Positions 1 to 64,000 of a stretch of DNA of 64,000 bases are shown piece by piece (the first letter of the stretch is position 1; each line of letters begins with the position of its first letter). The notes beneath the pieces were generated by a model, which was not told where the DNA came from, did no database searches, and was given only the letters and a program-made list of their open reading frames with translations. Origin of the DNA: Beroe forskalii (lineage: Eukaryota > Ctenophora > Nuda > Beroida > Beroidae); assembly GCA_011033025.1 (NCBI GenBank), contig WFMF01000001.1, positions 356,655 to 420,654 of the forward strand. The letters are read 5' to 3'. Position numbers and translations under genes: made by a program.

Positions 1-200
1 TCTATGAGTATCCATGGCAAATCTATAAGTAATAAGTATCCATGGCAAATCTATGAGTATCCAAGGCAAATCTATATGAGTATCCATGGCAAATCTATGA
101 GTATCCATGGCAAATCTACGAGTATCCATGGCGAATCTATGATCATCCATGGCAAATCTATGAGTATCCATGGCAAATCTATGAGTGTCCATGGTCCGTT
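1..200. repeat. 21-bp minisatellite, truncated by the window edge
   Basis: About nine units of a 21-bp motif built on TATGAGTATCCATGGCAAAT run from the window start to about 200. Because 21 is a multiple of three, one forward frame is open across most of it and reads as repeats of MSIHGKS, with a run of out-of-phase units near 30-75. The reading frame ends at 237. No flanking domain supports a gene, so I treat it as a minisatellite that happens to be open. It may continue upstream of the window. Confidence 0.8.
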
Positions 201-240
201 CATTCTGGAGGAGTTTAATAACCTGAATCCGTTGTGACTG

Positions 241-894
241 AATTCGCACTTGTAGTGGTGTTTGGTGAAGAGACAGGCGCCTTTGCACTTTCAGTCTTAT
301 CAATGGGAGAAGATACGGTAGCTGAGCGCAGCCCACGGCCAAAATAACAGTTAATAACATAACGCACACGAGCAACAAATATATGGTATTGAAATCAGGA
401 ATGAAAGTTCTAGCTGTTATAATACGTTAACAATATTAATGATGAGTTAATGAAATGGGTAGTACTGTCTCTGTGTCTCAATGTTTAATATCATTTTCAC
501 GAAAACCTATCCACGTGGTTCGAGTGACCTTATAAAAATAATCTGCTAAAAGTCCACTTTTACTTATTGTCCACCTTTTGAAGACACCTATGTGGAATAA
601 ATATCGTTTTTGTATTAATAAATTACTACCTACTCCTCTTCACGAGTTCAATAGACCTATTCCGTACTAAACCCACGATTTGTAGCACAAGTATCATACG
701 AAATACACATACCACAATGCACGTCAATACTGCTTCACCACAGACAATTCTTAGCTTTTATCTGTTAGATGAGTGTCATGTGTTTGAATTTAGATAATGC
801 ACTATGACCCTTCGACCTGAATCAGTTTAATTATAATTATATTGTAATAATTTAATGAATTACTGACAATTTACTTCCCAAATTGAGGTTGAAA
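241..894. other. No gene seen; AT-rich 5' flank of the transglutaminase exons
   Basis: No coding exon, RNA gene or clear repeat is visible here. It is the presumed promoter, 5' UTR or upstream intron of the exon starting at 895. Confidence 0.4.
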
Positions 895-3779
895 ATGACA
901 ACAGATGCTCAGGAGATTATAGACATTGACTCTGATGGATCTGATTGCAACGAGGAGGACTCGGAGTTCAACACGTTTGAGTCGAGTGCCACGTACCACA
1001 AGGACTCCCGGAGTAACTTCTTCACGCGACTCAGCAACACAGTGCGGGATGACGAGGAAGCACCGGATAAGATCTGGGTGCACTCCGTGGACTGGCAGAT
1101 CAAGGAGAACAAGGCCCTCCACCACACCGACCAGTACGACAACAAGAGGCTGATTCTGAGGAGGGGCATGGAGTTCACTATCAAGCTAAAGTTTGATAAG
1201 GAGTTCAATGAGGCAAAGCACTGTGTCACTTTCAATTTCTACATTGGGGATAAGCCCAGCATCAGTGAGTTGTGATAGTTATAAGCCCAGCATCAGTGAG
1301 TAGTGATAGTTATAAGCCCAGCATCAGTGAGTAATGATAGTTATAAGCCCAGCATCAGTGAGTAATGATAGTTATAAGCCCAGCATCAGTGAGTAATGAT
1401 AGTTATAAGCCCAGCATCAGTGAGTAGTGATAGTTATAAGCCCAGCATCAGTGAGTAGTGATAGTTATAAGCCCAGCATCAGTGAGTAGTGATAGTTATA
1501 AGCCCAGCATCAGTGAGTAGTGATAGTTATAAGCCCAGCATCAGTGAGTAGTGATAGTTATAAGCCCAGCATCATAGATAGTTATAGTGAGTAGTGATAG
1601 CATCAGTGAGTAGTGATAGTTATAAGCCCAGCATCAGTGAGTAGTGATAGTTATAAGCCCAGCATCAGTGAGTAGTGATAGTTATAAGCCCAGCATCAGT
1701 GAGTAGTGATAGTTATAAGCCCAGCATCAGTGAGTAATGATAGTTATAAGCCCAGCATCAGTGAGTAGTGATAGTTATAAGCCCAGCATCAGTGAGTAGT
1801 GATAGTTATAAGCCCAGCATCAGTGAGTAGTGATAGTTATAAGCCCAGCATCAGTGAGTAGTGATAGTTATAAGCCCAGCATCAGTGAGTAGTGATAGTT
1901 ATAAGCCCAGCATCAGTGAGTAGTAGTGATAGTTATAAGCCCAGCATCAGTGAGTAGTGATAGTTATAAGCCCAGCATCAGTGAGTAGTGATAGTTATAA
2001 GCCCAGCATCAGTGAGTAATGATAGTTATAAGCCCAGCATCAGTGAGTAGTGATAGTTATAAGTTCAGCATCAGTGAGTAGTGATAGTTATAAGCCCAGC
2101 ATCAGTGAGTAATGATAGTTATAAGCCCAGCATCAGTGAGTAGTGATAGTTATAAGCCCAGCATCAGTGAGTAGTGATAGTTATAAGCCCAGCATCAGTG
2201 AGTAGTGATAGTTATAAGCCCAGCATCAGTGAGTAGTGATAGTAAGCATCAGTGAGTAGTGATAGTTATAAAGCCCAGCATCAGTGAGTAGTGATAGTTA
2301 TAAGCCCAGCATCAGTGAGTAGTGATAGTTATAAGCCCAGCATCAGTGAGTAATGATAGTTATGGGCCCAGCATCAGTGAGTAGTGATAGTTATAAGCCC
2401 AGCATCAGTGAGTAGTGATAGTTATAAGCCCAGCATCAGTGAGTAGTGATAGTTATAAGCCCAGCATCAGTGAGTAGTGATAGTTATAAGCCCAGCATCA
2501 GTGAGTAGTGATAGTTATAAGCCCAGCATCAGTGAGTAATGATAGTTATAAGCCCAGCATCAGTGAGTAGTGATAGTTATAAGCCCAGCATCAGTGAGTA
2601 GTGATAGTTATAAGCCCAGCATCAGTGAGTAGTGATAGTTATAAGCCCAGCATCAGTGAGTAGTGATAGTTATAAGCCCAGCATCAGTGAGTAGTGATAG
2701 TTATAAGCCCAGCATCAGTGAGTAATGATAGTTTGTCAGCCAGTGAGTAAATGATAGTGAGTAATGATAGTGAGTAGTGATAGTTATAAGCCCAGCATCA
2801 GTGAGTAGTGATAGTTATAAGCCCAGCATCAGTGAGAGTGATAGTTATAAGCCCAGCATCAGTGAGTAGTGATAGTTATAAGCCCAGCATCAGTGAGTAG
2901 TGATAGTTATAAGCCCAGCATCAGTGAGTAATGATAGTTATAAGCCCAGCATCAGTGAGTTGTGATGGTTATAAGCCCAGCATCAGTGAGTAGTGATAGT
3001 TATAAGCCCAGCATCAGTGAGTAGTGATAGTTATAAGCCCAGCATCAGTGAGTAGTGATAGTTATAAGCCCAGCATCAGTGAGTAGTGATAGTTATAAGC
3101 CCAGCATCAGTGAGTAGTGATAGTTATAAGCCCAGCATCAGTGAGTAGTGATAGTTATAAGCCCAGCATCAGTGAGTAGTGATAGTTATAAGCCCAGAAT
3201 CAGTGAGTAGTGATAGTTATAAGCCCAGCATCAGTGAGTAGTGATAGTTCCTTGCGATGGGTGAAGACGGGCTTCAATTACTCGCTTATTTACTCTGGCC
3301 ACTGGTACAATGCTGTGACGAATATTACTCTACAATTCTTAATTATTTAATTAGGGGAGGGGTCGAAATAAGCGTACTGGGATGGGGATTTGAAAATAAC
3401 TGTTACCTGTTAACAGGAGCTACCAAATAAGTGCACTAGTGTACACAAAATAAAAACCGCCTTATCTTTTTCATCTAACTTATTACTACTAACCTAAATT
3501 TTGAATACATCGATTTTGCAAATACATACTACTATAAGGTACTGCAAGTTAAATTTTATTTTTCACTGAATTGATCTATTGCAAACTGATAACAGTCTTG
3601 ATAAGTCCTAACGAGATTTTAATCTTCAGTATTTTCCAGGTAAAGGAACGCTGCAAACTCTTCACAAATCTGAGAAACTCAAGAACAGCGAGTGGGGCTA
3701 CAAGATCAATAAGATCGAAGGAGACGAAGTGAGTCTGTCCCTGATAACATCGCACAGCACGCCCGTCGGTTACTACAAG
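895..3779 (+). CDS. Transglutaminase N-terminal domain, two exons (partial gene)
   Basis: Exon 895-1264 encodes an acidic leader (MTTDAQEIIDIDSDGSD) and then the start of a transglutaminase N domain (VDWQIKENKALHHTDQY, LILRRGMEFTIKLKF). Exon 3640-3779 continues it (GTLQTLHKSEKL, SEWGYKINKIEGDEVSL, TPVGYYK). The join is exact: exon 1 ends ATCA before GTGAGT, exon 2 starts GT after TTTTCCAG, giving an in-frame S-K-G-T. Exon 2 ends AAG before GTAAGC in phase 0. This domain precedes the papain-like core in factor XIII A-type transglutaminases. No core exon with the catalytic Cys-Trp motif is visible before the Mind bomb exons at 5920. The gene is therefore truncated, rearranged or misassembled, or it joins the next exon (see findings). 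The first ATG of the frame is at 895; an upstream coding exon is possible. The intron holds a 2-kb donor-site minisatellite. Confidence 0.72.
1257..3249 (+). repeat. 31-bp minisatellite of about 64 units, each carrying a 5' splice site
   Basis: A 31-bp unit is repeated with few changes from the last bases of the preceding exon to 3249. Its core ATAAGCCCAGCATCAGTGAGT equals the exon's final 15 bases followed by its GTGAGT donor. Variants include GTGAGTAA for GTGAGTAG, and short insertions or deletions occur near 1570, 1920, 2245, 2735 and 2835. Every unit thus repeats exon end plus donor. 31 is not a multiple of three, so use of a downstream donor would usually shift the frame. Confidence 0.95.
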
Positions 3780-5919: not shown

Positions 5920-8900
5920 GTTGATGCAAGAGACGAGGAGGGAGACACTGCCCTTCACTTAGCTCTTGTCAGACAAAGTGTTAGCACTGACAGCAGTGCT
6001 TCAGACACCATGGCACGGGTAAGGGGCAAGTTGTAGTTATGTCTTGTTACTAAGATTTGTCTATAATGGGAAGTTCAAGGTTTAGCCATATTCAGTCTAT
6101 TGTGAAAGATGCGCCATATTGATGGCTTGATCTGAATAATAAGAATTCTCATTCACATAGCTGCCGAACTGCCCTCCTTTTGGGAGGGCGCCCTCCCATG
6201 CCCTCCATTTGCCCTCCTTTCGGACCTTGCCCACCTTTTTGGAGGGCAAATCTGAAAATTTACCTAAAATTCTGATAATTTACTCACAATTCTGAAAATT
6301 TACCTAATATGCACTATCTCGGATCACATTTTTAGTCGTTCCTTAAAAAAAGTTCGCCATTTTTTGAAAATTTACTTACCAAGCACTATCTCGGATCAAT
6401 TTTGAAAATTTACCTATCAAGCACTATCTCGAATCAATTTTGAAAATTTACCTACTTAACATCCTTAAAATTTATGTATAATTCACCGAAAAATCTAAAA
6501 TTTACCTAAAATTCTGAAAATTTACCTACAAATGTGAAAATTTACCTAATAAGCACTATCTCGGATTCAATTTTTAGGCGACGTCCAAAAAAAAAGAAAA
6601 AAGAAAAGGTCGCCATATATTTTCTCAAATACACCCACAGAAATTGCCCTCCCTTCAACGCTATTTGCCCTCCCGAATGGGGCAAAAAAGTGCCCTCCCA
6701 AAAGATTTTGAAGAGTCGGCAGCTATGCTCATTCAATGCCACTCAAGAAGACTGCACCTTAAATCCCATCATCCACAGATTAGAACTCACCTGGGCATGG
6801 AGAACAGCGACGGAAACACGGGAGAAGCTATAGCGTGTTTCCTAGCCCAGGCAGGGGCATCGCTCATCATTGCCAACAACAAGAACAAGACCCCATTAGA
6901 CTTGTGTGCAGACCCCAAACTCAGAACAATACTGCAGGACTACTCCAGAAAATACAGAGAACGGTGAGTTACTACTACAAGACCATATTATATGGGTTGG
7001 CTCCAAGCTTATCAAGTCTTATTAATTCTTTGAAATGAAATTATGATTCAACCTGTATGCTAGACTTAAAATCATCGTGTTTGATTCAATATAAATCTGA
7101 ATTCACAATAGTATTACGAAATTACGAATAATTATTAACACAAATATATCAAACAAAACTAAGAATTTCCAGTTTTCTTCATCTCGTTCTTGCTCCGCCT
7201 CCTCTGGTTCTGAAACCAATCATCGTGTTTGATTCAATATAAATCTGAATTCACAATAGTATTACGAAATTACGAATAATTATTAACACAAATATATCAA
7301 ACAAAACTAAGAATTTCCAGTTTTCTTCATCTCGTTCTTGCTCCGCCTCCTCTGGTTCTGAAACCAATCATCGTGTTTGATTCAATATAAATCTGAATTC
7401 ACAATAGTATTACGAAATTACGAATAATTATTAACACAAATATATCAAAACAAAACTAAGAATTTCCAGTTTTCTTCATCTCGTTCTTGCTCCGCCTCCT
7501 CTGGTTCTGAAACCAATACATGACAGTTTTCACTGGTAGTCCTGTCTCTCTGCTTAGCGCACTCCTTTCTTCCCAGGATAAGTAGGGGTTTCTTCCAAAC
7601 TGTGTCTTCAGAATACCCAGCTGAAGGTCCGAGATGGCATGCCTTCTGCCATTCTGTGAGGTGGAGATACTTGGAGTGGAGTCAGGAGGGGAAGAGGATG
7701 AGTAGGTTAAATGGGAGTCGTTTGAGCGGGAGTAAGGGGAGGTGGATTTCTTCTTGTGGGAGGAGGGAGATATCTTCTTGATGTGGTGATGCTGGGTTGT
7801 CTGGAGAGAGGTGATAACGTCAGAAGGTAGAGTGGTGTCAGCAGGGGACTTGGTGTCAGGAGGGGACTTGGTGTCAGGAGGAGGCGTTGTATAACTCAGT
7901 GGAATGGTGTCAACAGCAGGGTTAGGTGAGGGAGTGGTGTCAACAGGGCTGTAGGGTCTTCTCTCCTGTTTGATGTCTGAAGCAGGAATGTGCGGTGGTG
8001 TAGTATCAGGGGATGTCTGATGAGAAGCAGGATTCTGTCTGATTGGAGTACAGCTGACATCAGGAGAGTTTCTTCTGGTGAGAGGAGCTAGTCGGTAGGA
8101 TGACGTCACATTGCAGGATGTCACAGGGTGACTTGATGATGTCACTCTGACAGGTGGAGGGGTTAGATCAGGGAGCAAGATCTTGAGTTCTGGTTTGAGG
8201 AAGATGATGGGTTTAGAAGGGTCACTGAGCAGGGTTACTCCAGACAAGTAGAGAGGGTCCACTAAAGGAGGGTTGCAAGGTTCAAACTTCATCTTGTAGT
8301 TGAGTTAAGAGAGGAACTGTAGTTGGAAGTGATACTTCCAACTATCACTTCCACTTTATATATATGTCTAACATGGAAGGAGTGCTAACAAGGGTGGTCC
8401 AATGACACCACAGTCACGTGACATCGTTATGCTTCTCTCACGCGCAGACAAGCTGGTGGGTGTTCTTGTCACGTGACTTAATGCTGATCACGTGACGTCA
8501 CGGCTCATCGGATCCTGTTAGGTGTGGGAATAATGGGGTTGTCTGGGAGCGCCTGTCAGGTGATGAGATCCAATCTCTTAAACTGATGGGAGTTTTCCTA
8601 TCAGTTCAGATGCGATCCAATCAAGTATCAAAATTAAGTTGGATCTGTGAATTCAAAGTCATTGAGACAGGGAAAACTTTCCTTCTTAGCTACTTATTTG
8701 AAATAGTACAAGAAACAAAGTTACAATCCCACTTGATATTTAAATCACACAGGGTAAAAGAAGGTGAGTTAACACCCAACTATCACCCTTATTAGGTATT
8801 CTCTCAGGGTAGAGGAAAGCGAGTTAGCGGCCGGGGTGGCGCCCCCAGACACCCTTTGTACGTTGTGCGAGGAAGCTAAAGCAAACCTGGAGTTCGGACC

Positions 8901-12025: not shown

Positions 12026-12129
12026 CGACCCGAAATTGTCGGCCGTTCACCCTCGTGAAAAATTTGCCTGATGATACCTGACCCGCTGATGCAGCCGCAA
12101 AGCGGTCGCGGTCTATCATCAATATAGAT

Positions 12130-14572: not shown

Positions 14573-14746
14573 CAGGGGCGTAGCCAGGGGAAGTGACACA
14601 GGCAGCTGCTTCCCCCTTTTGGACAGATGATATGAAAATTTTGTTCATTTTGATAAAATGAGAGCTTTGGGCCAACAAAATAAAACATTAAACAGTTTTT
14701 GAATGTAACTTGCTAGCCTCTTTTCAGAGATCTGGCTACGCCCCTG
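14573..14746. mobile_element. 174-bp hAT-type MITE with 8-bp target duplication
   Basis: Ends are the perfect 15-bp inverted repeat CAGGGGCGTAGCCAG. The element is flanked by the direct repeat CTGCATTG at 14565-14572 and 14747-14754, an 8-bp target-site duplication as made by hAT transposases. No coding capacity; nonautonomous. Confidence 0.9.
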
Positions 14747-14759
14747 CTGCATTGCCAGA

Positions 14760-16845
14760 TCTCTCTCTCTCTCCCCTCAGTGACACTATTTCGACATCTT
14801 TGTACAGTGTTGTACAGTGTTGTGAATAAAGTTCTTGATAAACAGAAATGTCAAACTCTTCCTGAAAATGATGATATTGAAAGGCTTGCTACTGAATTTA
14901 ACCACTTTTACATTGATAAGATCGACAAGATTCGTGAAAAATTCAGGTTTGAAAATTCACCTCTGGAATTCAGTCCTCCATCTCCTGAACTATTTGACTT
15001 TGTGCCTGCATCCTTAGATGAAATCAAGGATATCATCAAGGAGAGTGGAGTCAAGTGCTCTCCCACTGACATACTGCCTCAAGAATTACTTGAAGACAAC
15101 ATGGATATGTTACTCCCAATCATTGTTGACATGGTGAACAATTCCTTAAAAACTGGTTCTATGGATGGGGTTAAACTGGCTGACATAGCTCCTCTTCTTA
15201 AAAGTCGGAAACTTGATGCAAACAATCTAAATAGTTACAGGCCAGTTTCTAACCTTACCTTCATTGGTAAATTGGTAGAAAGAGTTGTACTCAGGAGACT
15301 GAATACTCATATGGAACAAAACAACCTCCTCTGCCCAGACCAATTTGCATACAAGAAGAACCACAGCACGGAAACAATTCTCTTCAAAATTGTAAATGAT
15401 CTATTGGTAGCTTCAGATGAGCAATCAGCCACAGTGGTTATGTTATTGGATCTAAGTGCCGCTTTCGACACAGTTGATCATGATTTGCTCCTCAAAATCC
15501 TTAAGAATGAAATTGGTCTCAGAGGCACTGTCTTGTCGTGGTTCACTAGTTTTCTCAAAGGTCGTGCACAAAGGGTAAGGCTTGGCTCAGTCACTTCTGA
15601 GACCATCATTATCAAGTTTGGAGTTCCACAAGGGTCAGTACTAGGTCCAGTCCTTTTTAACATATATATTCGATCAATCTACTTGTGTGTTAAAAAACTT
15701 GGCTTCAGTATCTTCGGCTATGCTGATGATCATCAGGTTACTAAACAATTTCGTCCAACAGAACAACTAGATGTTTTGACAAATCAGATAAATGACTGTT
15801 TCGATGCCATCAGAAAATCGATGTCTAAGTTTTATCTACAGCTCAATGAACCCAAGACTCAAATTACAATATTTGGGTCAAGTAAAATCCTAAACAAGGT
15901 TGTGATCAATGGTGTGAATTTATTGTGGTGCAACCATAGGTTTCTGATCTAATAGTCAAAACTTGGGATTCCAATGGACCAAAGTTAACATATGCCAAGC
16001 AGATAGGTTTCCCTGAAGAAGAACTCATTTCACACTATTAGAAATCTAAGCAAAGTAAGGTTTCTACTTACAAAAGATCAAATGAAATTAGTTGTAAACA
16101 GTATGGTTATCTCTTGTTTAGACTACTGTAATGGGCTATACTATGGCATTGCAGAGAAACAAATAAATCAGCTACAGGTCATACAGAACTCTGCTGCTAA
16201 GCTTGTTTCAGGAAAATACAAGTATGATCATGTTGGTGATGATCTTCATAACCTTCACTGGCTTCAGGTAAGAAAACGGATTGTATTCAAAATAGCGCTC
16301 TTATCTTACAAAGCAATCAATGGCCAAGCTCCACTTTATATCCAAGACATGTTCTGTTACTCATATCAAGGCTATAGGCCAAAACTAGACTCCAGCAATG
16401 AACACTTCACATGGACAAGAGCCTTTCATATATTGGTCCCAAGATTATCAATAGCCTTCCTACTCACATCACATCAGCTGAAAGCACAGAGACATTCAAA
16501 AAAACATTTGAAAACTTATCTATTCCAATCTGTCCATTTCTGATACTATGAAACTGACAAAGTGAGAAAGTGACTCCCTGAATTTTTTTGAAACATGTAT
16601 GTGTTTGCTTTACTGAATATTCCATGAAGTTTTGTGGTCCACTAACATAAGAAGTTATTTGAGTTAAGCTATGTTTTTAGTTTTCTAAATTTTTTTCTAG
16701 CTTTCAGGTGAATGCACTTTTTTAGTTTAGAACATCCTCAGTAGAATAATTTTGGCTTCTTTTGGGTTTTACACTGCTGAGTATAAGTTTTTCTTAATAG
16801 CGGTGTACTTAAATTGCAATTATTATTATTATTATTAGGTGGCTT
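14760..16845 (+). mobile_element. CR1/L2-like non-LTR retrotransposon, 5'-truncated and broken
   Basis: A reverse transcriptase runs from 14780 to 15952: motif A LDLSAAFDTVDH, motif B FGVPQGSVLGPVLFN, and the catalytic motif FGYADDHQV. After stops and a frame break, the C-terminal part (SCLDYCNGLYYGI; LQVIQNSAAKLV; LHWLQVRKRI) continues at 16082-16543. There is no endonuclease domain upstream, so the copy is 5'-truncated. An ATT microsatellite at 16820-16840 probably marks the 3' tail, as is usual in the CR1/L2 group. It appears inactive. Confidence 0.85.
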
Positions 16846-17180: not shown

Positions 17181-20100
17181 ATGGATGAACCACGCAATAC
17201 ACCAAGCTCTCCTGGAAGGCGTCGCATAATTGAATTCTCAAGTTCACCACCTCGTGATAGATCTGAAGTTGGCCAGTCAGATAATCTTCCAGCTTTTGAA
17301 GATGAAACAAATATACTAGGACGAGATGTTGAAGAAGAAGATGAGGTAAGATGTCCTTTGTGCCTTTTCCTACAAGTTATGTAGCCTGACCTCGGCACGT
17401 CATAAATCTGCAACCTTATTTTTGTGAATAAGTTTTTATCTAACTTTTCATGCACTTAATTTATAATGGTATGTACTAGTTTTAAAGAGTACACTTTTAG
17501 TTGCATTTATTCAAGTTTATTTTCATTATGTTCAATTTCATTAACCATATAACTATTATTAGTCCATAGTGGGTGACTCTTTTAACAGTTTTCATAATTC
17601 AGAGATGCTTTAAAGGAAATGCTAAGAAATTATACATTCTTGACAAAACTGCCCAGAAACCTCTTAGAACAATGAATTCATACTTACCTTTGCCCCATGT
17701 ACTTATCCTAAATCCAAACCAAAACCCTAATCCAAGCTAATCCCTGACCTAAACATTAATAATAATAATAAATTTAAAGAATTTCTAACACGCTTAGACA
17801 ATCTCTAATATAACCTTAGGAAATATTTTGCCATTAAAGCGTGGCCAAAGTTTGATATCAAAAAGTGTCAGATCATGATATTCATAAAACATTCCTATTT
17901 ACAAGCCATAACAATGTTATATTCCATTAAATGCAGTCTCAAAATAGTAAGTTTTCAAAAGTTTTTTAAATGTAGCAAGTTCTGAGCTACATCTTATGTT
18001 GTATGGCAAGTTGTTCCATATCTTAGGGGCAGAATATGAAAATGCTGCTTCTGTTTTCGCAAGGCATGGTGGTTGAGGAACTTTCAAGAAATAAAAGTCA
18101 TTGTCGAGTCTGAGACTGACGTTTTTAATTTCTCTTACAGAAATCATTTCCTTGAGGTATTGTGGAGCAAGGTTGTTTAAACATTTGAAAACTAGGAGAG
18201 CTATTTTGAATTTTATTCTGAATTCAACAGGTAGGAAATGAAGCTTTTTAAGGTATGGTTTAATATGCTCCCATTTCTTCTTGCCATACAGTTTGAAGAT
18301 AAATCGAACAGCATTATTCTGTAGCTTCTGAAGTTTCTGAATATTTTTCTTTGTCAAACCTCCATAAGACGCATTACAATAGTCAATTACTGATAGAATG
18401 TTAGAATGAACAAGTTGGACTTTTAGTTCATAACTGAGCTTTGATCCAATTCTTTTGAGGTCTCTTAGATTGAGGTAGCAGATTTGGGATATAACTTTGA
18501 CCTGCTCACTCATATCTAACTGATGATCAAAATAGAATCCAAGATTTTTAGCATTCAGTGCTGGTTACAGTTCTATTTGGCCGAAATTGTTTCCCAGATC
18601 AAGCTTCTCAATAGGACTAACATAATAACCTATATCAAGGAATTCTGTCTTGTCATCATTGAGTTTCATGAAGTTTAGAGCCATCCATTTCTTAACTTCA
18701 CCAAGACAGAGTTGGATGTCTTTAAGATCTGGATTTTCAGAATTGACATCAAATTAATGACTCACTCTAACTCTGTCACAAACCTAAGCCCATATGGCTA
18801 ACCTAACAATACCCTGAACCATACTAAACTTAAATCTCAGCTGCAACCTAAATCCTAGACTAAACCCTAACCAATATATGTGCACATGCATTGATTGATG
18901 AAGAGATTAAGTGCAGTTTTTTCTCATGTTTTCATTGATTGAACAAAATGCACACATATGGGTGACCTATCACCTTAACACTAGCCTGAACCTAACATAT
19001 ATCTTATTTGATGGAATATTTAACACTTTTCTGCTGATGATCCTTCCAATTCATTCAACAGCATACTGTGTTTATTAAAGTATTTGATAAGCTGTATACT
19101 CCTAAACCTCACCTAGACCTCAGCCTGAAGATGTAAAGTTGGCTGTTTATGTCCCTTTTTAGGAGCATTTATGTCCAGGCAGAATTTTGTCTGCTCAGCA
19201 CTATTTTTTATGTTCTAATCATAGGGGATTGTTCACATATTATGTAATCACCTAGGGTAGGGATGGGGGGTTCCAAATGATAACATTACATGTTGTTGTA
19301 ACAAATGCAACTACTGTAAACTTGATTATAAGGGGGGGGGGTAAAATTGGCCAAAAAGTAATTACATAATATGTGAACGATCCCTAAAGGGATTGAACAT
19401 AGGTACTAGGATACTTAGGTACAGATTAGACACAAGAAATTATTGACAGAACTAAGAAGATGATTTTTGTTAGTATATGAACAATGAAGGGAATTAATTA
19501 GATAATTGACCACTGTTGTTTCAGGGAGAGGGAGAAGATCTATTTGGCGATAATATGGAAAGGGATTATCAACCTATCCCTGAGCTTGATACATATGAAG
19601 AAGACATTATCGACAGAGATGACTATGATGCAATGAGCCCAGGAGCAAGGTAATTTAGACTTTATTATACAATCTATCTTTTCCTCCTTCTGACAACTAT
19701 CTGCCTTACCTCCATTCATTTCTTCATATTCCCTTTGTCCTACTATATACCTCACAGCACCCTGTTGGCCTGTTAGTCTATTATAGAGTTTTCTTGCCCA
19801 TATGTAATAATCTGTTCTACCAAGCTAGCAATCCTTATTTTTAAATATGGTATTCTGGCACTGTTGTTAACAGCTGTTGAACAATCAAGTTGAAAATTGT
19901 CCATATGCTGAACCTTTTTACCTATGTATTATTTTATGGCTTACTCAGGGCTGCTGCAGAATCAGAAATGAGGGAACGTGATCGTGCCATGGCTGACCGT
20001 GGTGATGGGAGGATGAGACGTGGTATCCTGTTTGATGCTGCTGATGAAGATAGTAGGCCAGGTAGGAGGCGAAGAATTATCCAACAAGCAGGAGAGGATG

Positions 20101-28247: not shown

Positions 28248-30468
28248 GATTCCAGTGTTCACTGATTGTGATGCATGAGTTATCTAATCGAGTTTTTGGG
28301 GGTTCACTGAGGTGAATTGGTTTATATTGTGGAATTGGGTGTTACAGATTGGTTTTGTGGATCGAAATTTGCGTGAATAAAATTTCGGAATTATCTGCAG
28401 ACTAATAAAGAACATGGTATGATAATTGATCAAATATGAAATGCATCCCATCGCCCTGTGTAAAGTTGTGTTATTTTCCTGGGCTGCATCAGGATCTAGG
28501 CAAAATTCTGGATTGAACGAGTAGTAACATGTTGGAACTTGTTTTTATTTGTTCTCAGATTAATGAATTATATTGTATTGAATTTTGTTTATATATAATC
28601 ATATAGGTACTCCAAATTCCTCAAACTGACTGTTAGATGAATATCAATTACATCAATTCTTGTTGTGGAGGAATCTAATAGAATAGCAATGAAAATACTC
28701 CAATCTGCATACTGATTCGATTTTTCGTCTGTGGACATCAAAATATTATAATAAAAATTTTATTTATTTTGAATTTAATATAATTTACCTGATTACGTGA
28801 CCTCTACAACCCCCAACACACCACGTGACCTTGTGTTGCACATATAAAATACACAACCCCGACTGTAACATTATATACCTACGTGTTGCCTCCTCGTAAA
28901 TATAAAATTACCGGAAAATCAAGGATTATTAAATGTTACAATGAACCTCCTCTCTCCTCGGTCCATATTATACATCATCACAATATGATAACTTAATAAA
29001 TAAGATTAGTTATTACATCAAACTTCGGAATTCCCGAATATTTAGAAGTACCAAGTTAATGTTGTTATATCATTGTCATCTTATTATTTCTCTTCTCGTA
29101 GGTTTTGTTTTCGAATGTATTTTATTTTGGCATTGCGTTCATCAGTCATATCTGGTCGGCTCCCGTTTGAACATCGTTAGGTTGTAATGTATCGCTGAAA
29201 AAAGTAATGTTTCCCATGTTTTTCCATTTTATGATATTTGACCTTATATATCTATGCTCGTCACGACTTGTGCATTTTACTAATGTATTCAACAGGCGGT
29301 AATGTCTGTTGATTTTTGTGATATTTTTAATATTTCTTTGGTTCGGTGTATATTCGGTTTGACAGTTTTTAATGATATTTTTAAAGACTGCTGTTCTTTT
29401 AACAGGGCCGTAATTCCTGATGAGTTATAATGGAGATTGGAGGGGGGCTGCAGTCCCTCGAAGATTTTTCACATCAAAAATTCAATATTATAATATTCTG
29501 GTCTATAATCATTGCATTCTCAAGACTTTTTGATCATTTTTACTGTTCTATCATTTCAAAAAATGAACTTGATGTACTAAAAGTGCCAAAAACGCTCTTG
29601 GACTGCTGCCCCTGGACCTCTGAATGGGGTCTAACTAAGAGACTTGCTTTACTTACCCAACCTCTCCCACAAGTGTGAGATGCTAATTGCGGCTTTGTCA
29701 TTTACTACTATTTTCAATGGAATCACGTACAGATTTGAGAAGGTGTCAACAGTCTTGACAGAGCGCTGTTTATTATAGCATCAAATATTCTTTTTGTTAC
29801 TGGGAGGAATGAATGAAATTCACTGGAATTTGCTGGGAATCCTCCTGATCCCCAGATGATTATTACGATCGTATGTACTTTTAATAGGTCCTGGAAATAT
29901 GTGCGAGAAATTCAATACCCTAAATTTGAGAATTTAATTCCTAGGAATATCGCGTCCACCTTTGCACACATATGAAATATTAAATTTCTCTTACGACACA
30001 CACAGACATACTCCGGGGGCTATGTTATAAATTTTAATATCATATGAATTTTGTACTTGAATTCCTTTGTCATTTGCTCTGACTATCATGTGTTTATACT
30101 ACGTGCAACAGCTCACATAGCTAGCATTCCTTAGACGTGTACAATCGTCATATATTAGATTGTTGTTGTACGCAACATTTCGAGGTGCCTTGCTAAATCA
30201 TGCGTGGTGTTACACTGTTACAACGGCCAACGAAGTATATTTTTTGTTATGTTCTGGATTTTGTATAGAATAAATATATTTCAATTGAAAATACAACGGT
30301 ATTGCTGTTTTACTTGAGTTTCTATTTCATTTAAGTTAGTTGATTATGATTCATTGATCTTTTTGTGTATTCATAGTTTAGCAGTATTTCCTTATCAGAA
30401 AAGCACTACCTATAATATAATAATATCTAGAACTGCCATTTTAATCATAACTCATCCCTTGTACAGGA
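28248..30468. other. 2.2 kb intergenic, no gene seen
   Basis: AT-rich sequence between MadBUB and AAGAB. It contains short open frames without recognisable domains. A putative acceptor (TTGTACAG) lies just before the AAGAB ATG, so part may be a 5' UTR intron. Confidence 0.4.
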
Positions 30469-31266
30469 ATGACAAGTAGAATCCTAATTTACAACAAATC
30501 CGCGATACCTGACTCTGACATCTCATCTGGATTACAATGCGACCCACACAGCAACCTCATCACATTCGATAACAAATACTTCACCGCTGAAGTGGAACTA
30601 TGCTTCGAATCTCACGTCCCAGTTGAAGAAATCTGCGATACTGTCGAAGCTTTCGTCTACGTCGTTGATGACCCGAATCAGACATTCAGTCGATTATCAG
30701 TGATTTGCGTGTTTTCGTTGACTTCCTATCGGAGCATGACCCGGCGGTCAAGGTGTTGTTGATAAACGCCAGTGAGCCTGACCTCGAGTCAGACTTCCTG
30801 GAATGGTGTGTGGAGCATGAGTTTGAGTTCGTGAAGTACATTGTATCAGATGATTCCAACTCGGAGGACGAGATTATGGGGCACTCTGAAGGGATTGGGA
30901 GAGTGAGATCGGCTCTGGAATGTCACATGTGGCCGTACAGGACAATGAAAGACAAGCAATCAGCTGCGAGTACATCAGTGAATGGTAAAACACGAACTGA
31001 CTCAGATACTCAGGAGGAAGACCCTCCTAAAAGAGCCTGCCTCTGGAAGTGGGGATGAGTTTGGAGACTACGCGTCTGGGTTAGACTTCCCGTCCCTCAT
31101 GGAGGAGGATGTCTTAGGAGGGGATTTCCAGGACATGTTCGCTAACATGATGAAAATCAAGGAGACAGCGGACCAGATGCCGGACCACGAGGAACGGAAG
31201 AAGTTCGCGGAACAGGTGGCCATGTCTTTCTGGCGGGCCATGGGAGGGTCAGATGATGAGTTGTAG
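30469..31266 (+). CDS. AAGAB: AAGAB, alpha/gamma-adaptin-binding protein p34 (two single-base indels)
   Basis: Frame 1 (30469 to about 30687) reads ITFDNKYFTAEVELCFES and VEAFVYVVDDPNQ, the N-terminal GTPase-like half of the p34 family. The next frame (about 30688-31030) reads DLRVFVDFLSEHDPAVKVLL and FLEWCVEHEFEFVKY. The last (from about 31032) reads the conserved C-terminus FQDMFANMMKIKETADQMPD, FAEQVAMSFWRAMGGSDDEL. One base is missing near 30684-30688 (a TT run) and one extra A lies in the run 31029-31032; both restore the family sequence exactly. AAGAB is a cytosolic assembly chaperone for AP-1 and AP-2 adaptors. About 265 residues, slightly shorter than human. The stop codon lies in a 31-bp tandem array. 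Confidence 0.85.
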
Positions 31267-31388
31267 GGCTCTGTGAGGGTTAGATGACGATTTTAAGGCC
31301 CTGGGAGGACCTGGTGACGAGTTGTAGGGCCATAGGAGGGTCAGGAGACGAGTTGTAGGGCCATGGGAGGGTCAGATGACGAGTTATA
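31235..31388 (+). repeat. 31-bp tandem array repeating the AAGAB C-terminus and stop codon
   Basis: Five units start at 31235, 31266, 31297, 31327 and 31358. The first is coding (RAMGGSDDEL and TAG). The others repeat it downstream of the stop with increasing divergence, e.g. GGGCCATAGGAGGGTCAGGA. The period is 31 bp except one 30-bp unit. Confidence 0.88.
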
Positions 31389-35939: not shown

Positions 35940-38900
35940 ATGAATGGACCGAGTGAAAGGCGGTACAGTGTGCAGCCCCCCTACATAGAGCCCCCCGCGT
36001 GTTCCAACAACGCCCCTTCCAGCGGGGCTGAGCACAGTGGCGTGTCCATCCAGCTAGCTTACAGCAACCTTACTAATCGTGAGTACAGCAACCTTATAGC
36101 AACCTAACAGCAACCTTACTAATCGTGAGTAGTAGTGTCCATCCAGCTAGCTTACAGCAACCTTACTAATCGTGAGTACAGCAACCTTACAGCAACCTTA
36201 CTAATCGTGAGTATAGCAACCTTACTAATTGTAAGGTGTACGTTATTTTCCTGAACTTCACACCACATTCCATGCCAGCTCAGCTGTGTGACATGAAATT
36301 CTGGCAATTTCGGTAGTTGTAACATCAAAAAACGCATACGTCAAATTTCTGTTAATTCCTTCTAGAAACCCAATGCTGACGCCTCTTGGCCCCAGTGCTT
36401 TCAATTAAAGTTGATTCTTTAGCCGGCCAGAGGATCCCCTAGCTTTGAACATCGCAACCTTTTTTTTCTAAGAATCATCTGGAAGGTCGCTAAGTTCCGG
36501 GGGGTCCTCCACGAACGGAGATAAGTGCACTTAAGGAATACTTATGATCGATTTTAAGTGTGCTCATAAATATTCTGTTCACGAAACTTGAGTTAAGAAG
36601 ATATTTCGCACTTATCTTTTTCTTCTTAGGAACTTCCTAAATATTTAAGAAGACTTATCATAAACCCTTCCTAAGTCTGCGTTACACTTCATATTTGATG
36701 CGTGAGTCAAACGTGAGCTTAATTGGGGTCTTGTTTCCTAACTCACTAAGTGCACACTTAACTTTCTTCTTAACTTCACTATATTTAGGTGCATCACTAA
36801 GAGCGGTTTTATCCTTCTTAACGTCTTCTTAGCGTGATCCTAACTCAGGAATGTGATTCAATTTCAATCAAATAATTATTATATCGCCCTTATTTTTCTT
36901 TATTGAGTTAGAACAGTAAATTGGAAATGTTTTCATAGCAGCGATAGGAAATACTATCATTATTAGCTTATGCTTGGCGTGACACAGAATCAATTATCCT
37001 TTCTTGGCCTCTGATTGGCTTGTGCACTATACATGTGATTTGCGTTAGCTTATTCACGTGTCACATCCTACAACACTTAAGAAGGGTTTCGTGGACAAGA
37101 AAATCCATCTTAAAAACAATATTGGTTAAGAAGAAAAGTTTCATGAACAGTCACAACTCGCGTTCCTAAATATGAAAAGTGTTCATAACTTTATGATCAC
37201 TTTTAAGAAGGAAGTTTCGTGGAGGAGGTCCGGGTTAGAAATTGTGAAAATATATACATTACTGGCAGAGATATTTGACTTCCTTCTAATTTCAGAGTTA
37301 GAACAGTCGCAGCGAACGAACGAGTCGCTGCACAGCAAGCTCGGTCAGTTATCCGTGCACTTGAGCAATGTGCAGCATACGAGCAACCAGAACGCTCAAC
37401 AGAACATATCCCTCAAAGAGGTACAAGCAGTAGTTTACTTAGCACGTGCAGTTAGTGCGCCGCGCACTTTGAAGGGCACGCTCAATATATGAAATCATAT
37501 TTTTTAAGAAAAATGAATTTTCATTGTACGAGTTTATATATTTAGCATCAATGAGAGCTGTATGGTAATCGCATATATTATGTATCTCGGGTTGCTGGCG
37601 TGATTCCAACTTCCGGTGTAGCAATTCGTTAGTTTGGTGTTCACGGAACTCGAAAACAAAATAATATTATGTTTTGTCCCATCTTATGGATTTATCTAAT
37701 TACATTTTATGATGTTGACCACTATGATAAATCATCGATCATCTCTGTTCCAAATCTCTATCAATTACCACACGGGAAGATAGTCAGTATTACGCATCCA
37801 ATTGACCACTTTAATGCGTGATAATGACATCATTTTCTCCTTTTTAACTGCCTATTTTTTGTCCACTACTCATTCATCCCCCACAGGAGAATGAACGACT
37901 CCGGTCGTTATTGAATCTTCCGAGTTTGGACGTGTCGCGGGAGGTTGATCAGAGGTTACGGAATTTAGAGGAATTCTGCCACAAGTTATCGGAAAGAGAA
38001 ACCGATAGGTACGGCAAATTCTACAGAACTTTAGCTATCAGTTAACGAATGTTAATATATCCAAAAATATTATGAATTCATTAGATGCGCTTTTTATTCG
38101 ATGATCTAAAATTTATGGATGATGATCTGTGGCCTGCTCTTTATGAATTTAACCCCCGGAGAAAAAATATGAGGCATAAGTTATTTGTGAGAGAAAAGTT
38201 ATTTATAACTGATAAAGTTTGAATTAAGAAACCCTATCACCTCTTATCGCTCCCACGCATTTGCTTGCAAAAAAGAGGCAGGTGCATATTTTTTTCGTGT
38301 CAATAAAGTCATTCACATAAACCTCTCCCACTCAGATATCAGACCGCCTGTCCGCCTCCTCTCTAACTCACATCCCCCTCAGATCAGACCGCCTGTCCGC
38401 CTCCTCTCTGACTCACATCCCCCTCAGATCAGACCGTCTGTCCGCCTCCTCTCTAACTCACATCCCCCTCAGATCAGACCGCCTGTCCGCCTCCTCTCTA
38501 ACTCACATTCCCCCTCAGATCAGACCGCATGTCCGCCTCCTCTCTAACTCACATCCCCCTCAGATCAGACCGCCTGTCCGCCTCCTCTGGAGGTATCTCC
38601 CTCTCCAACATTTCCCTCGTCAGCACCTCAGCCGGAGTCCCCGGTCCCTTGGTCCCGTCCGATCCCGCTCCCCTGTACAAGCAGGACGCGAGCAGCACCT
38701 CCGAATACAGCAGTCTCTGTTCCCTGGACAGGGTGGACGGAATGTCCGTCAGAGAGAAGGTTCTCGAACTGGAGACCAACGCCCTCAAACAGGTACATTC
38801 TACTTCCTAGTGGCTACTTCTTATATTCCTGGTACCCAGCGGGCATTGTGTTGTTATACTCTAAACACCATGTACGCTAAAACAGCGTACTCTAAATATT

Positions 38901-43893: not shown

Positions 43894-46314
43894 CTACAAC
43901 GGCAGAGAAAGTGAAGCCTTGAGTTTCTTAATTTTGGTCGCAGTAGACATGTCAACTCGTTTGTCGCCAATTTCGACAACCATACCACCAATCAAACTCT
44001 CGTCAGTCTGAAATAGTGCAGACTTTTCAGTATTACATTATGAGGCATACGCAAAAGAGTGAGATGGCTGAGATGCAAGATTGAATTTACGAGATCGAAA
44101 TTGCTTGTCACTTCTCAGAAAGTAGCAAGCTTCATAGATCATGAAGATATCGAAAGTTGCAAGATAATGATAACAAAATGCTTTACAGGAGAAGTACTTA
44201 CAGCGGTATCGAGAAGCAGTTTCTCATTTCCTTTGAGGAATTTACCGAGGGACTCCTTCAGACTTTCTAAATGATCGTCTGACAGAGGCTTAGCTGATGT
44301 TACTCTGCAGGGTACCTGAGATAGTAAAATAAATTAAGTGATAGCACTGCATTCTTCGTTTTAAAATCAAGAGAAACAGCCTGTAACGACATATCAGTTG
44401 AAATTCCTTACATAGTTTTGGTATCCGACCGCTTTGAATAACACTCGATAAAACTGTTCGGAGATGAACTATTCTCCTTTTTACATCTTCCTACCACTCA
44501 CCTCTCCCCTTTGAGCAGCCATGATGGTGTTAAAAGCTCCAACCACCCCGCTGATATGGTTAGCTCTCTTGTTGTCTATCATGGTGCTGATCATGTTACC
44601 GATCAGGGGATCCACGTTAGCTTCTCCAAACGCTCCATCGATAGTAGGGATCGTTCAGATATTACTTCATCAATTATTCAGTGCATTCTTCCTCCCGTAA
44701 CCACGCTTACATTTCCATAAGTTGTATTTGTTACCATAGCAAAATTATTTGAAGGCTCCCTACCCCTCTTCAGATCCTAAATTACGAGATATGTGAACGA
44801 TAAGAGATGTATTGCAATACCTGCCGCTTATCAGAGTTTACAGGTTAGTGTAAGCATGTCATAGCATAAGGTGTAAGGACGTGAGAACCGTCACAAAACA
44901 CCCATTGTAACTGGAATTAGATTGAATACTTTGCACAAATCCGAGGGGAGGCCAGGCGTGATAAATGGTAGTTTCGGCGGAATTTTCGGTGGAACTTTAT
45001 AACCGTGAACATCAAATAAGATAAAACAATATGATTACAGAATTAGGACCTAGAACGTACCCCCAGTAAAGATTTGCAATGTTATCGCACCGTGTCAGAT
45101 TTCATATGTCATTTTCTAGAGAAAGCTCATCCATATTCCAACAGGACATCCACTTTTTACAGCTCATTTATAGAGTATAATGATATACCTAATTCTAGAG
45201 TGTGATAAACTTTGTATAATTTCATATCAAAGATTGCAGATTATTACGAGTCAAATAACGCATCACCTGCTCCAACAAAACATTGCTTAAATTATCGGTG
45301 AAACTGGTCTGAACATGGTCCAGCAGAAAAATATTGGCTCTTACATAGAACAGGAGTATTGACGTACCACGGCAGTCCAACCTCATCTTTACAATTTAAA
45401 AGAGTAACTAAAACTTAAATGGAGCCCATGATCTATTATTTACCATCGATAGTAGCTTTCTTTTCCTCCTTGCTACAGACGGGGAGGGAGAGATATTCCT
45501 TCAAACCAGCAACGGAGTCAATAGCAGCCTGAGAGAACGGGTATACGTTAATCTTTACTCTAAATTATCTTATTTCCTGGAAATTGATATGATCGTACAC
45601 TGTACACACATTTTGATGATAACCAAAGAAAGCCTTGATTAGTGTGCAAGTTGCTGTACTAACAAGAGATAAGGTTTCACTTCCATATATCGAGACCTAA
45701 TTGATTAAATACTACTTATATGAACTCCGTATCATGACTTTCAGTAATTTTCCTATTTACTGCCCAGTTTACACTCACTCGTGAACTGTAACTGTACACT
45801 CAGTTGGTACAGGATCATGTTTACTTTACAGGGACTGTATTGAGTGTAAATTTAGTGGGAATGGGTGTTATGTTACCTAACCTGAATTAGTGTGATTTTG
45901 TTTACTCAAGGGTATCATCCCACACACATTCGGAAGTACCAGTACAGCGGGAGTGTGCGAAACAATCACTAATTTTAAAATGTTAAAATTCTCACTAGAC
46001 AACACAAAATCCCAGAACATCATGTCAACACTTGTGCGATACCGCCAAAACGTAATGTAAGAAAACCGAACGGTCTCTTTTCATACATACTCGAAATAGA
46101 CACAACACGAATTTAACAGGGGTTGAACCTGCAGAGAGTTGAGCTGCTCCTCGACCACCTCCACACTTCCCTGCTTGGTAGAGGCCGAGTAGAGAGCGTG
46201 AGCATATCGGCCTTCAATGCCGAACACTTGCACCGGCCCCCGGATAAACTCAGAGGCAGCGCTAGACAAGGAGCGAGAACTGCATCGTACGATACCAGCG
46301 AGTCTACCAGCCAT
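43894..46314 (-). CDS. ATP5PO: ATP synthase peripheral stalk subunit OSCP
   Basis: Five exons in transcript order: 46314-46129, 45528-45444, 44632-44502, 44315-44202, 44007-43894. They join in frame to 209 residues (human precursor 213). MAGRLAGIVRCSSRSLSSAA is a mitochondrial targeting peptide. GPVQVFGIEGRYAHALYSA is the family signature near the N-terminus; NQISGVVGAF-type sequence (NHISGVVGAFNTIMAAQRGE) and SLIGGMVVEIGDKRVDMS are the conserved C-terminal half. OSCP links the F1 head to the peripheral stalk of the inner-membrane ATP synthase. All junctions are GT-AG; for intron 2 this requires the acceptor GGAG before CGTTTGG, giving ATIDAFGEAN. That intron is bounded by a 13-bp direct repeat, and the start-codon region is duplicated upstream (see findings). 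Confidence 0.93.
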
Positions 46315-46336
46315 GGCTAGAACAGGGAGAAAGGGG

Positions 46337-46363
46337 TCAGTAATCAGCGAGTCTACCAGCCAT
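46337..46363 (-). promoter_or_regulatory. uORF made by duplication of the OSCP start region
   Basis: The segment CAGCGAGTCTACCAGCCATG around the OSCP ATG is repeated about 49 bp upstream. On the reverse strand the copy opens with the same six codons (MAGRLA) and stops after DY. If it lies in the 5' UTR it is an 8-codon upstream ORF that could lower translation of OSCP. Confidence 0.6.
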
Positions 46364-46769
46364 GGCTAGGAGAGGGAGAGCGTGAGTAATCAGCAGAGGA
46401 GAAGATTTTCTAGTGATTAAAGGGAGAGGGTTGGTGAGATATCAGTGGTGGTAGGGTGCGGGTGTTAACAATGAAAACGGAACTGCAAGGTTTGATAAGA
46501 TTGGACTTAGTATCTTAATTAATGACTGCAGAGAATTTTTCCATCCTAACGATAATTGCAATTCACTTGATAATGTCAGCTCATTTCCCAGCAAAATGCA
46601 AGTCATGATTCAAGGAGTTTTGGGAATTTTTCACACGAGCCTAGTCTTGATTGAGTGTAACATTTGATTGGATCTCATTCCTTGACAGCACTCGAGGAAA
46701 CGATCAGGTGACCCTGCACTAAATCCGTGGTATTCTCCCACGCCCCTGACAGGATCTGATAAGCCGTGA

Positions 46770-46988: not shown

Positions 46989-47831
46989 ATGAAGTTTGAA
47001 CCTTGCAACCCTCCTTTAGTGGACCCTCTCTACTTGTCTGGAGTAACCCTGCACTGTGACCTTCCTAAACCCATCATGTTCCTTAAACCACAACTCAAGA
47101 TCTTCCTCCCTGATCTAACCCCTCCACCTGTCAGAGTGACATCATCAAGTCACCCTGTGACATCCTGTAATGTGACGTCATCCTACCGACTAGCTCCTCT
47201 CACTAGAAGAAACACTCCTGATGTTAGCTGTACTCCAATCAGACAGGATCCTGCTTCTCATCAGACATCTCCTGATACTACACCACCGCACATTTCTTCT
47301 TCAGACATCAAACAGGAGAGAAGACACTACAGCCCTGTTGACACCACTCCTAACCCTGCTGCTGACACTATTCCACTGAGTTACACAACGCCTCCTCCTG
47401 ACACCAAGTCTCCTCCTGACACCACGTCCCCTGTTGACACCACTCTACCTTCCGAAGTTATCACCTCTCTCCAGTCAACCCAACATCAACACATCAAGAA
47501 GATATCTCCCTCCTCCCACAAGAAGAAATCCACCTCCCCCTACTCCCGCCCAAACTCCAACTCTCGCTCAAGCTCCAACTCCGACTCCCCCTCTGACTCC
47601 AACTCAACCTCTTCTGACTCCACTCCGAGTGTCTCAACGAAACGGACCGGAAGAAGGCACGACATCTCAGACCGCCAGCTGAGTGTGCTGAGGACATGGT
47701 TTGGAAGGAACCCCTACTTATCCTGGGAGGAAAGGAGTGCACTAAGCAGAGAGACAGGACTACCAGAAAAAACGGTCATGTACTGGTTCCAGAATCATAG
47801 GAGGCGGGTCAAGAATGAGAAGTTTGCTTAA
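46989..47831 (+). CDS. Intronless homeodomain protein, copy 2
   Basis: 280 residues, starting MKFEPCNPPLVDPLYLSG as in copy 1; an in-frame ATG at 46905 overlaps the TATA region and is rejected. The Pro/Ser/Thr-rich middle aligns with copy 1 but has an added Ser/Asn run near residue 200 (SNSRSSSNSDSPSDSNSTSS). The homeodomain begins near GRRHDISDRQLSVLRTWF and ends WFQNHRRRVKNEKFA at the C-terminus. L16, F20, Y25, W48, F49, Q50, N51, R53 are present; position 52 is H instead of R. The C-terminus is shorter than copy 1's. Both copies have open frames, so both are probably functional. It lies 38 kb from copy 1 in opposite orientation. Confidence 0.85.
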   Translation: MKFEPCNPPLVDPLYLSGVTLHCDLPKPIMFLKPQLKIFLPDLTPPPVRVTSSSHPVTSCNVTSSYRLAPLTRRNTPDVSCTPIRQDPASHQTSPDTTPPHISSSDIKQERRHYSPVDTTPNPAADTIPLSYTTPPPDTKSPPDTTSPVDTTLPSEVITSLQSTQHQHIKKISPSSHKKKSTSPYSRPNSNSRSSSNSDSPSDSNSTSSDSTPSVSTKRTGRRHDISDRQLSVLRTWFGRNPYLSWEERSALSRETGLPEKTVMYWFQNHRRRVKNEKFA

Positions 47832-62370: not shown

Positions 62371-63917
62371 GTATGTCTCACGTTTTCGATGCATTTTTCA
62401 TTGTCTCTTGTCTCGACCTTTTTGTGCGCGGCTTAATGCTCCGCGCGTGGATCATGCCTTTTCGTACTTACGTAAGTAGAAAAAAGCATCCACCATGTAC
62501 GGCGTTTTACGAAAAGGTCAGAACGCCTGGGTTATTTCACATTGTTATGAAGCAATTGTGAGAATTGTGATATCAGTGAATGATGTTATCAATTCTAAAG
62601 CAGCGCTAATTTTTATTAAACTTGGACGATCAGATCCAGCGTCTTAATGAAACCCGATATATCTGATCTCCAATCTGTATTCTAATTTATATACCCTTAT
62701 ATACCCAATTCAACATGTTCATATTACACTCACATGAGTTATGACGGGTGCCTGTTCCTTGCAACTGGTAACCTGTTAACCTGTAACATGATACTCTCCA
62801 AGATAACACACACTCTCTGTAGTAGTGTGTACCTTAAAAACACGCCCGCATGTGGTCTCCAGCCTCTCTCCAACTGAGAGAGGGCACCAGGTGTAGGAGT
62901 GCATGAAGTCTGACTGAACCTACACGATAATATGCTGATACACTGGAGTTTAAAGCTCCGTTGCGATCATTGATATATTACGTCACAAGTCATGCTTCAT
63001 GCCTCACATGTTGGTTGGTTAGTTGGTTAAGTGCGCTTCCGCGGAGGCGCAGTGCCATACGACATGGCCCCTCATAGTCTGAGGGGCAACGGTCGCGGTT
63101 TGGCTGATATGTTGGCATAACTAATAGTCTATATAGTAGAGGACAGATATCTATATAGAATATTGTTCGCTTAACTATATTCTCCAATTGGGTAATAGAC
63201 CCCAATGGCCCCAACTCAAGCAGTTATCTGTCTGTTCAACTTGAGCCGAAAACATACGGTTTGCTTCTTTTCGAGGCGATGAAGCAACCAAATATTCTCC
63301 TCCCGTTCTCCTTTATCTGGACAAGAAACGGGAAAGAGTGTCCTGAATCATGTTAGTATTCTGGGGCGAACAGAGGGACATCCCGTGATTTGGTTTGGAT
63401 TTATTTTGGGGTTTTGTTTTGATTATCCCCACAAGCGTGGCTTAGCATATTATTACTAAGTTATTTCTTGTTTCCCTTTCATTTTTGATGATTCATGGTT
63501 TACTTAATCAAAGATTCCGTCAGTACTTCCATATTTTTCAGCTGATGTTTTAGTGTTTACTGTATTATGAGTTACCTTGCCTTTTCTCCTGCTAATTTAT
63601 GATTTTTGCAGTTTGCAGATTACATAAGTACATAAACAGTCGGGTGTTTTATTGATGTACTCTCATGTGGGTTCAACTTTCATAGCAAAAATTAGTCTAA
63701 CTAGCAAGCCTGTTGAGCCTACAAATACACAGCTACACAGCACTTCGTTTGCAAATTCTAAACTTAATTCAAACTTGATATTTTCTCTAAAGGTGATAGT
63801 GTTTTATACGTTTCTAATGCCTGAAATTTTTTTTATTAACCACTGGTTTCAGGGCAGTAGTTAGTTTAAAACTAACCATCATGAACTCAGATTAGATCCT
63901 TACTGTACGACATTATT
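62371..63917. other. No further gene seen to the window end
   Basis: Expected lumenal exons of the second TMEM106 gene are not recognisable. Contains the possible tRNA-derived repeat at 63012. Confidence 0.4.
63012..63110 (+). repeat. Possible tRNA-derived repeat (SINE-like)
   Basis: TTAGTTGGTTAAGTGCG resembles a tRNA A box region and GGTCGCGGTTTGGC, 70 bp on, loosely a B box. It does not fold as a good tRNA by eye. Weak call. Confidence 0.2.
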
Positions 63918-63918
63918 A

Positions 63919-63955
<37 letters not shown>

Positions 63956-63956
63956 C

Positions 63957-64000
<44 letters not shown>
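63918..64000. repeat. (TGAT)n microsatellite
   Basis: About twenty units of TGAT with one ACTGAT interruption at 63954, running to the window end. Confidence 0.97.

Follow-up and report, generated by a model that had tools for sequence, protein, structure and literature searches.

Minisatellite arrays whose repeat unit lies across a functional gene edge recur in the genome of the ctenophore Beroe forskalii, both in a 64,000-nucleotide stretch of contig WFMF01000001.1 (hereafter the window; C1:356655-420654, where C1 denotes this contig) and beyond it. We read these arrays, with a probability of roughly 0.72, as 'mirages', i.e., minisatellites with a unit across a functional gene edge, which would have arisen by silent tandem duplication and would affect such edges about twice as often as similar sites elsewhere. 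The units hold exon plus intron sequence, or coding plus untranslated region (UTR) sequence; it is the outermost copy, joined to the exon, that agrees with the reading frame. The original prediction had proposed recurrent arrays across exon edges in the window; these proved to be real and were also found further along, in myosin, zinc-finger (ZNF), SLC13-like, homeobox, RhoGEF, SLC22-like and eIF6 genes.

The studied region consists of the window and the adjoining next 200 kb of C1, i.e., 264 kb (5.2 kb of which read N) of an assembly of 216 Mb in 1134 contigs. 'Region' coordinates are positions in these 264 kb, and 'outside' denotes their part beyond the window. Arrays were called with Tandem Repeats Finder (TRF; score 30), which gave 116 arrays in total (97 outside and 19 within the window), domains were detected with Pfam, and gene models are home-made predictions. 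Three further stretches, L001 to L003, were selected by a GTAAGT pattern and are not a random sample for that reason; two 10-kb stretches were added later, L045, picked for a GTAAGT array, and L046, picked blindly.

A transglutaminase donor repeated in a 31-bp array

The array at the transglutaminase (TGM) gene begins its first unit in the last 15 bases of an exon that ends at the 5' splice site 1264|1265 (Table 1). The PF00868 match is interrupted at this donor, covering profile 2-62 before it and 62-110 after it, so that the site is very likely the true one. About 64 copies of it had been claimed, in good agreement with the 65.0 TRF copies, which include 62 donor-like sites, the true donor among them; each of the 61 decoys would lead to a premature stop if used.

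The 5' region of TGM has a damaged counterpart in inverted orientation at C1:568.4-570.4 kb (region 211738-213760). This broken paralog has a stop in exon 1, lacks the exon end and directly abuts a 28.5-copy form of the 31-bp array, so that, in a comparison limited to these paralogs, copy number differs (65 vs 28.5 TRF copies). The presence of the array in both suggests that it probably predates the duplication that produced them.

Gene edges inside arrays outside the window

The myosin heavy chain gene repeats 34 bases of exon tail plus donor at two points of the following intron (+117 and +255). Recurring exon-tail copies of 12 to 54 bases are seen in a second homeobox gene, in which the homeodomain is matched only as far as profile position 45 of 57; its donor was set by hand at region 165504, the gene finder having chosen the next copy. 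Splice-site arrays are also present in a ZNF gene, a SLC13-like gene (Na_sulph_symp) and a SLC22-like gene (Sugar_tr/MFS), with the Pfam match in other exons, and in the RhoGEF gene the final codons and the stop, as predicted, form the beginning of a 29-bp array. Further along the contig (C1:920 kb), a unit of ~98 bp is present three times in the eIF6 gene, each copy with a 3' splice site and exon head, and on contig C2 a 16-bp array of 48 copies takes up the intron between exons of an ankyrin gene (L003 1498-2276) and reaches the 3' splice site. No gene was predicted in L002, and no array lies at any predicted edge in the 10 kb of L045. The blindly picked L046 contains two arrays, one within a reverse-transcriptase-like prediction and the other 9 bp outside the predicted acceptor of a gene that by eye resembles CPSF2. 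A seven-transmembrane-like gene at ~102 kb with a 3' splice-site-like array had no Pfam match and was excluded from the support.

Altogether, units crossing an exon-intron boundary, as in mirages, are found in the TGM, coiled-coil-like (see below), ZNF, SLC13-like, homeobox, myosin and eIF6 genes, and both types of boundary are affected (5' in TGM, myosin and homeobox, 3' at 38563 and in eIF6). Genes with a boundary inside the unit and backed by Pfam, although not always in the exon concerned, are TGM, two homeobox genes, AAGAB, RhoGEF, ZNF, SLC13-like, SLC22-like and myosin (head domain). At splice edges the shortest unit has 23 bp and the longest 138 bp, while the unit at the stop codon of the homeobox gene of the window has 148 bp.

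Frequency of arrays at gene edges

Minisatellite arrays make up 9.8% of the 264 kb, and overlaps between arrays and exon edges are therefore to be expected in such a genome. Chance alone, i.e., that some arrays must fall on edges and that these were the ones noticed, is the strongest rival explanation. It finds its best argument in the shuffling of whole arrays: when the comparison with shuffled positions suggested alongside the original prediction was run literally on the 264 kb, there was no excess outside (11 of 97 arrays crossing an edge vs 12.1 expected, P 0.69). Nor was there one in the window (3/19 vs 2.5, P 0.46); with hand-curated edges added, the window gave 5/19 vs 2.8 (P 0.09) and, with stricter exon cut-offs, P 0.016, but the curated edges weigh too much there.

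Because shuffling drops long, whole arrays onto exons, which is impossible for insertions, each array was also collapsed to one unit (the seed), genes were re-predicted and random segments of unit length were placed. Under this null a modest excess over shuffled controls appears, both for all outside arrays (11/97 vs 4.8, P 0.005) and in the window (3/19 vs 0.87, P 0.05). Dropping the arrays in eight listed intervals (paralog, inverted-duplicate and dispersed copies) and merging those at most 100 bp apart took the 116 arrays of the whole region to 97 and gave a reduced outside set of 81. Ten of these 81 cross an edge, compared with 3.6 under uniform placement, 4.1 under placement matched for guanine-cytosine (GC) content and 3.9 under local shifts (P 0.0015-0.004), and with 4.4 when both GC and pyrimidine skew are matched (P 0.0055). 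Among genes backed by Pfam or named on the basis of their protein sequence, 11 of all 116 arrays cross edges vs 4.0 expected (P 0.0006). Around donors, seed coverage is ~0.10 at the edge and 0.03 far away.

A test free of splice signals, counting arrays that have coding-like sequence on exactly one flank, points in the same direction: at threshold 8, 19 of the 81 outside arrays qualify vs 7.8, 10.1 and 9.7 expected (P 0.0015 or less), 15/71 vs 6.7-8.2 after merging to 300 bp (P 0.0025-0.012), and, over all arrays, 23/97 vs 13.3 when the null is matched for GC and pyrimidine skew (P 0.0045). The effect is local: relative to local shifts its significance is gone when flanks are read at least 60 bp from the array, and relative to uniform placement it fades by 300 bp. 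The units themselves score above random segments as splice sites at some cut-offs (donor >4, 35/116 vs 23.5; acceptor >7, 11 vs 3.9).

Several results weigh against a twofold preference. Merging to 300 bp reduced the outside seed count to 8/71 vs 3.2-3.7 (P 0.01-0.02). Strict sets, both chosen after the data were seen, are only marginal. Without the exons and edges doubtful by eye (ZNF ~88.8 kb, SLC13-like ~234.4 kb and SLC22-like ~146.6 kb), the Pfam-supported or named genes gave 8 vs 3.8 (P 0.03), and 6 vs 2.95 outside only (P 0.06). When ten arrays in nine intervals were left out because their flanks may derive from repeats, the splice-signal-free count outside weakened to 14/71 vs 8.8 (P 0.03). 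The myosin gene alone has one crossing vs 0.9 expected, 20-mers at junctions show no per-base excess at donors (8/93 vs 7.1% at random), units with an acceptor score >4 are not in excess (21 vs 22.8 at random), and units are unremarkable among dinucleotide-shuffled versions of themselves (mean ranks 0.48 and 0.49). Finally, the gene models are our own and many variants of the tests were run. Two other comparisons were set aside: a genome-wide count of GTAAGT pairs (274+235 vs 422+372 in the reversed control), which is swayed by long arrays, and a 'non-coding placement' null, which was unfair in limiting coding overlap in the null and leaving it unlimited in the data.

A seed-level excess of about 1.5- to 2.5-fold at exon edges is hence likely but not secure. 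Coincidence in a minisatellite-rich genome would have to account for its appearance under uniform, GC-matched, skew-matched and local-shift nulls, and mostly beyond the window, and we consider this explanation unlikely, albeit one to be taken seriously.

Origin of the arrays and fate of the decoys

The mirage reading, together with the roughly twofold preference for edges, would be explained by a simple sequence of events. A short tandem duplication across a gene edge would arise by ordinary slippage or template switching and would be silent, because the outermost copy still does its job and the extra copies drop into the intron or UTR; the array would afterwards grow and shrink like any minisatellite. 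The preference could mean either that mutation itself favours exon edges, or that arrays survive better there and are re-seeded from a selected master copy. Within coding sequence, five of the six internal arrays have periods divisible by three, which mostly keeps the frame.

In a stronger version, raised in the original prediction, decoy splice sites and new introns are being made by a process such as repair or template switching where exon boundaries are transcribed. Decoy sites do exist as sequence, but 77 of the 81 donor decoys in six arrays would, as read from the sequence, yield a stop if used: all 61 in TGM, 3/3 in the coiled-coil-like gene, 2/2 in myosin, 8/9 in homeobox, 3/5 in ZNF and 0/1 in the SLC13-like gene. 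Of the four others, two belong to ZNF, one of them being open in frame, and the SLC13-like and homeobox genes account for one each. On the other hand, 3' and 5' splice signals coincide in some units (CAG|GT; RhoGEF, region 142.9-143.1 kb; SLC13-like, 233.7 kb; L003 653-729), which would allow complete units to be lost if adjacent copies were spliced to each other, and one unit upstream of 38563 would by eye add 15 in-frame codons (open reading frame (ORF) 38502-38810). This stronger version, active intron gain included, appears quite doubtful to us. The related view that tandem duplication is still going on and prefers exon edges, and that arrays at a sizeable share of splice sites form a reservoir of spare edges and possible introns, is a tentative one that we regard as rather improbable.

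Selection retaining decoy splice sites, or branch-point and pyrimidine arrays, as splicing aids would fit the greater density of arrays at or just inside splice sites: with doubtful exons included, the first 0-40 bp on the intron side carry an array at 10/65 acceptors and 8/62 donors, the interval at 200-240 bp at 3/65 and 2/62. However, the acceptor count climbs back to 8/65 at 400-440 bp, and TGM and its broken paralog differ in copy number, making such selection very improbable. An assembly artefact, for which two frame breaks in AAGAB would speak as a sign of residual indels, is just as hard to credit, given that units vary within arrays, that a diverged paralog (C1:568-569 kb) carries the TGM array as well and that similar arrays are present elsewhere on C1 and on C2.

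Two observations concern the introns of these genes. In the myosin gene, arrays of CTAAC/CTAAT and C-rich units lie directly upstream of acceptors (region 110273-110475 and 119567-119617) and look as if branch point and pyrimidine tract had been amplified. In the intron of the second homeobox gene (region 165504-165900; L033 1504-1900), the mismatches between the 54-base exon-tail copy and the exon fall on six third-codon positions and one first. This would be odd under neutrality and, on the tentative reservoir view above, looks as if spare copies exchanged with functional exons; a genome search for a paralogous source, skipping common words, returned only the locus itself.

Other gene edges in the window

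The remaining arrays of the window were, with one exception, as described in the original prediction (Table 1). A gene with a coiled-coil-like product, recognised from its reading frame and with no Pfam match above cut-off, bears arrays at a donor and an acceptor alike. At 36078, four donors had been claimed and are present at 0, +46, +93 and +128, together with a weaker one at +152, and the exon-tail copies vary in length. The five extra copies reported at the 38563 acceptor, the five at the AAGAB stop, the three at the homeobox 3' end (7456) and the two at the OSCP start (46314) are likewise matched by the copy numbers found. The exception among the seven duplications listed is a 13-bp repeat at an OSCP intron: the only repeated 13-mers in 45301-46500 belong to the start-codon duplication. 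Two arrays had been singled out for a shared 31-bp period; the periods are correct, but period 31 occurs in 3 of 97 arrays, and we rejected it as a mark of common origin.

Table 1. Coordinates in the window of the arrays at gene edges and of the two transglutaminase exons
Feature	Position	Strand	Basis
Transglutaminase N-domain exon	895..1264	+	Pfam PF00868 9.8e-19, profile 2-62; gene model
31-bp array, 65.0 TRF copies	1250..3249	+	Units = exon tail + 5' splice site (ATCA|GTGAGT)
Next transglutaminase exon	3640..3779	+	PF00868 profile 62-110, 24.5 bits, below cut-off 27
Homeobox last codons and stop (7456) inside array	7070..7517	-	TRF period 148, 3.0 copies, 99%; Pfam homeodomain 2.2e-14
Array with AAGAB stop codon (31266)	31235..31385	+	TRF period 31, 4.9 copies, 77% matches
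5' splice-site array at 36078, coiled-coil-like gene	36042..36225	+	TRF; exon-tail copies 16, 18, 28, 37 bases
3' splice-site array at 38563	38338..38588	+	TRF period 45, 5.6 copies; unit = pyrimidine tract + AG + exon head
OSCP start codon in 25-bp perfect two-copy repeat	46296-46320 and 46345-46369	-	Below TRF listing (score 30)

The AAGAB and OSCP assignments come from Pfam matches slightly below cut-off (PF10199 directly upstream of the stop array, 8.4e-07, 30.2 bits vs 32; OSCP, 20.8 vs 22.3 bits). The AAGAB coding region (30469-31266) shifts frame twice (ORFs at 30451, 30672 and 30982), which suggests assembly indels or a decaying gene. Predicted exons of an ankyrin/RING-like gene flank the one-exon homeobox gene (7456-8292), which is on the other strand. 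Its second copy, 87% alike, is located at 46989-47831, with no array at its 3' end in the TRF listing; as the array is present in one of the two copies only and its units are 99% alike, it probably postdates the gene duplication.

Other features were noted in passing. ORFs resembling by eye reverse transcriptases of the long interspersed nuclear element (LINE) type are found at 14717-16540 and 17920-18564 of the window. Outside, a large inverted duplication (region 178.5-211.7 kb) has blocks 84-91% alike, and its two arms carry arrays of one and the same 27-bp unit in opposite orientation, and a ~366-bp tandem unit occurs in dispersed copies, 88-97% alike and in both orientations (region 153390-154423, 221458-222740 and 226861-228935). 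An innexin gene is present, and in mitochondrial COX1 seven AGA/AGG codons face five Arg, one Lys and one Ala of solved COX1, while five TGA codons face Trp; AGA/AGG are accordingly read as Arg and TGA as Trp, and the mitochondrial contig measures 13.3 kb. These traits set the host apart from lancelets and agree with a ctenophore.

Comparison with known systems

In human, a minisatellite in the 6-16/IFI6 gene repeats a 5' splice site, at this single locus. The closest parallel to the Beroe arrays is known from amphioxus. Mirages were described there in Adh3 and in the globin genes BflGb6 and BflGb9 as minisatellite-like repeats lying over exon-intron junctions at either the 5' or the 3' side, with unit lengths of 10-72 bp and of 150-160 bp and AG/GT in many copies; they show length instability, leave splicing undisturbed and were proposed to contribute to intron gain (PMC3087553, 2010). 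A paper on lancelet PGBD5 adds further mirage genes, TnC and PGBD5 being cited too (PMC3902484). Among the literature matches listed, we found no report of mirages outside lancelets, which is no proof that none exists. The kind of array and the idea of intron gain are thus already published for amphioxus; what is new is the distant, non-bilaterian host, the arrays at stop codons and the conserved genes concerned (myosin, homeobox and eIF6).

The arrays of Beroe forskalii resemble amphioxus mirages in having tandem units that span 5' or 3' boundaries, in the range of 10-160 bp and with many AG/GT copies. They differ in that the host is a non-bilaterian, that arrays of up to 65 copies also occur at stop and start codons, and that they are known here from genomic sequence alone. 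In the Rogers model, introns are gained by tandem duplication of AG/GT sites (as described in PMC3087553). Some units (RhoGEF, SLC13-like and L003) would likewise let the whole unit be spliced out.

If mirages are common far from lancelets, they would not be a cephalochordate oddity but something that minisatellite turnover produces generally in some animals. Such a genome would allow splice-site choice to be measured among dozens of near-identical donors, and the long-standing question of a contribution of tandem duplications to intron gain could be addressed in it.

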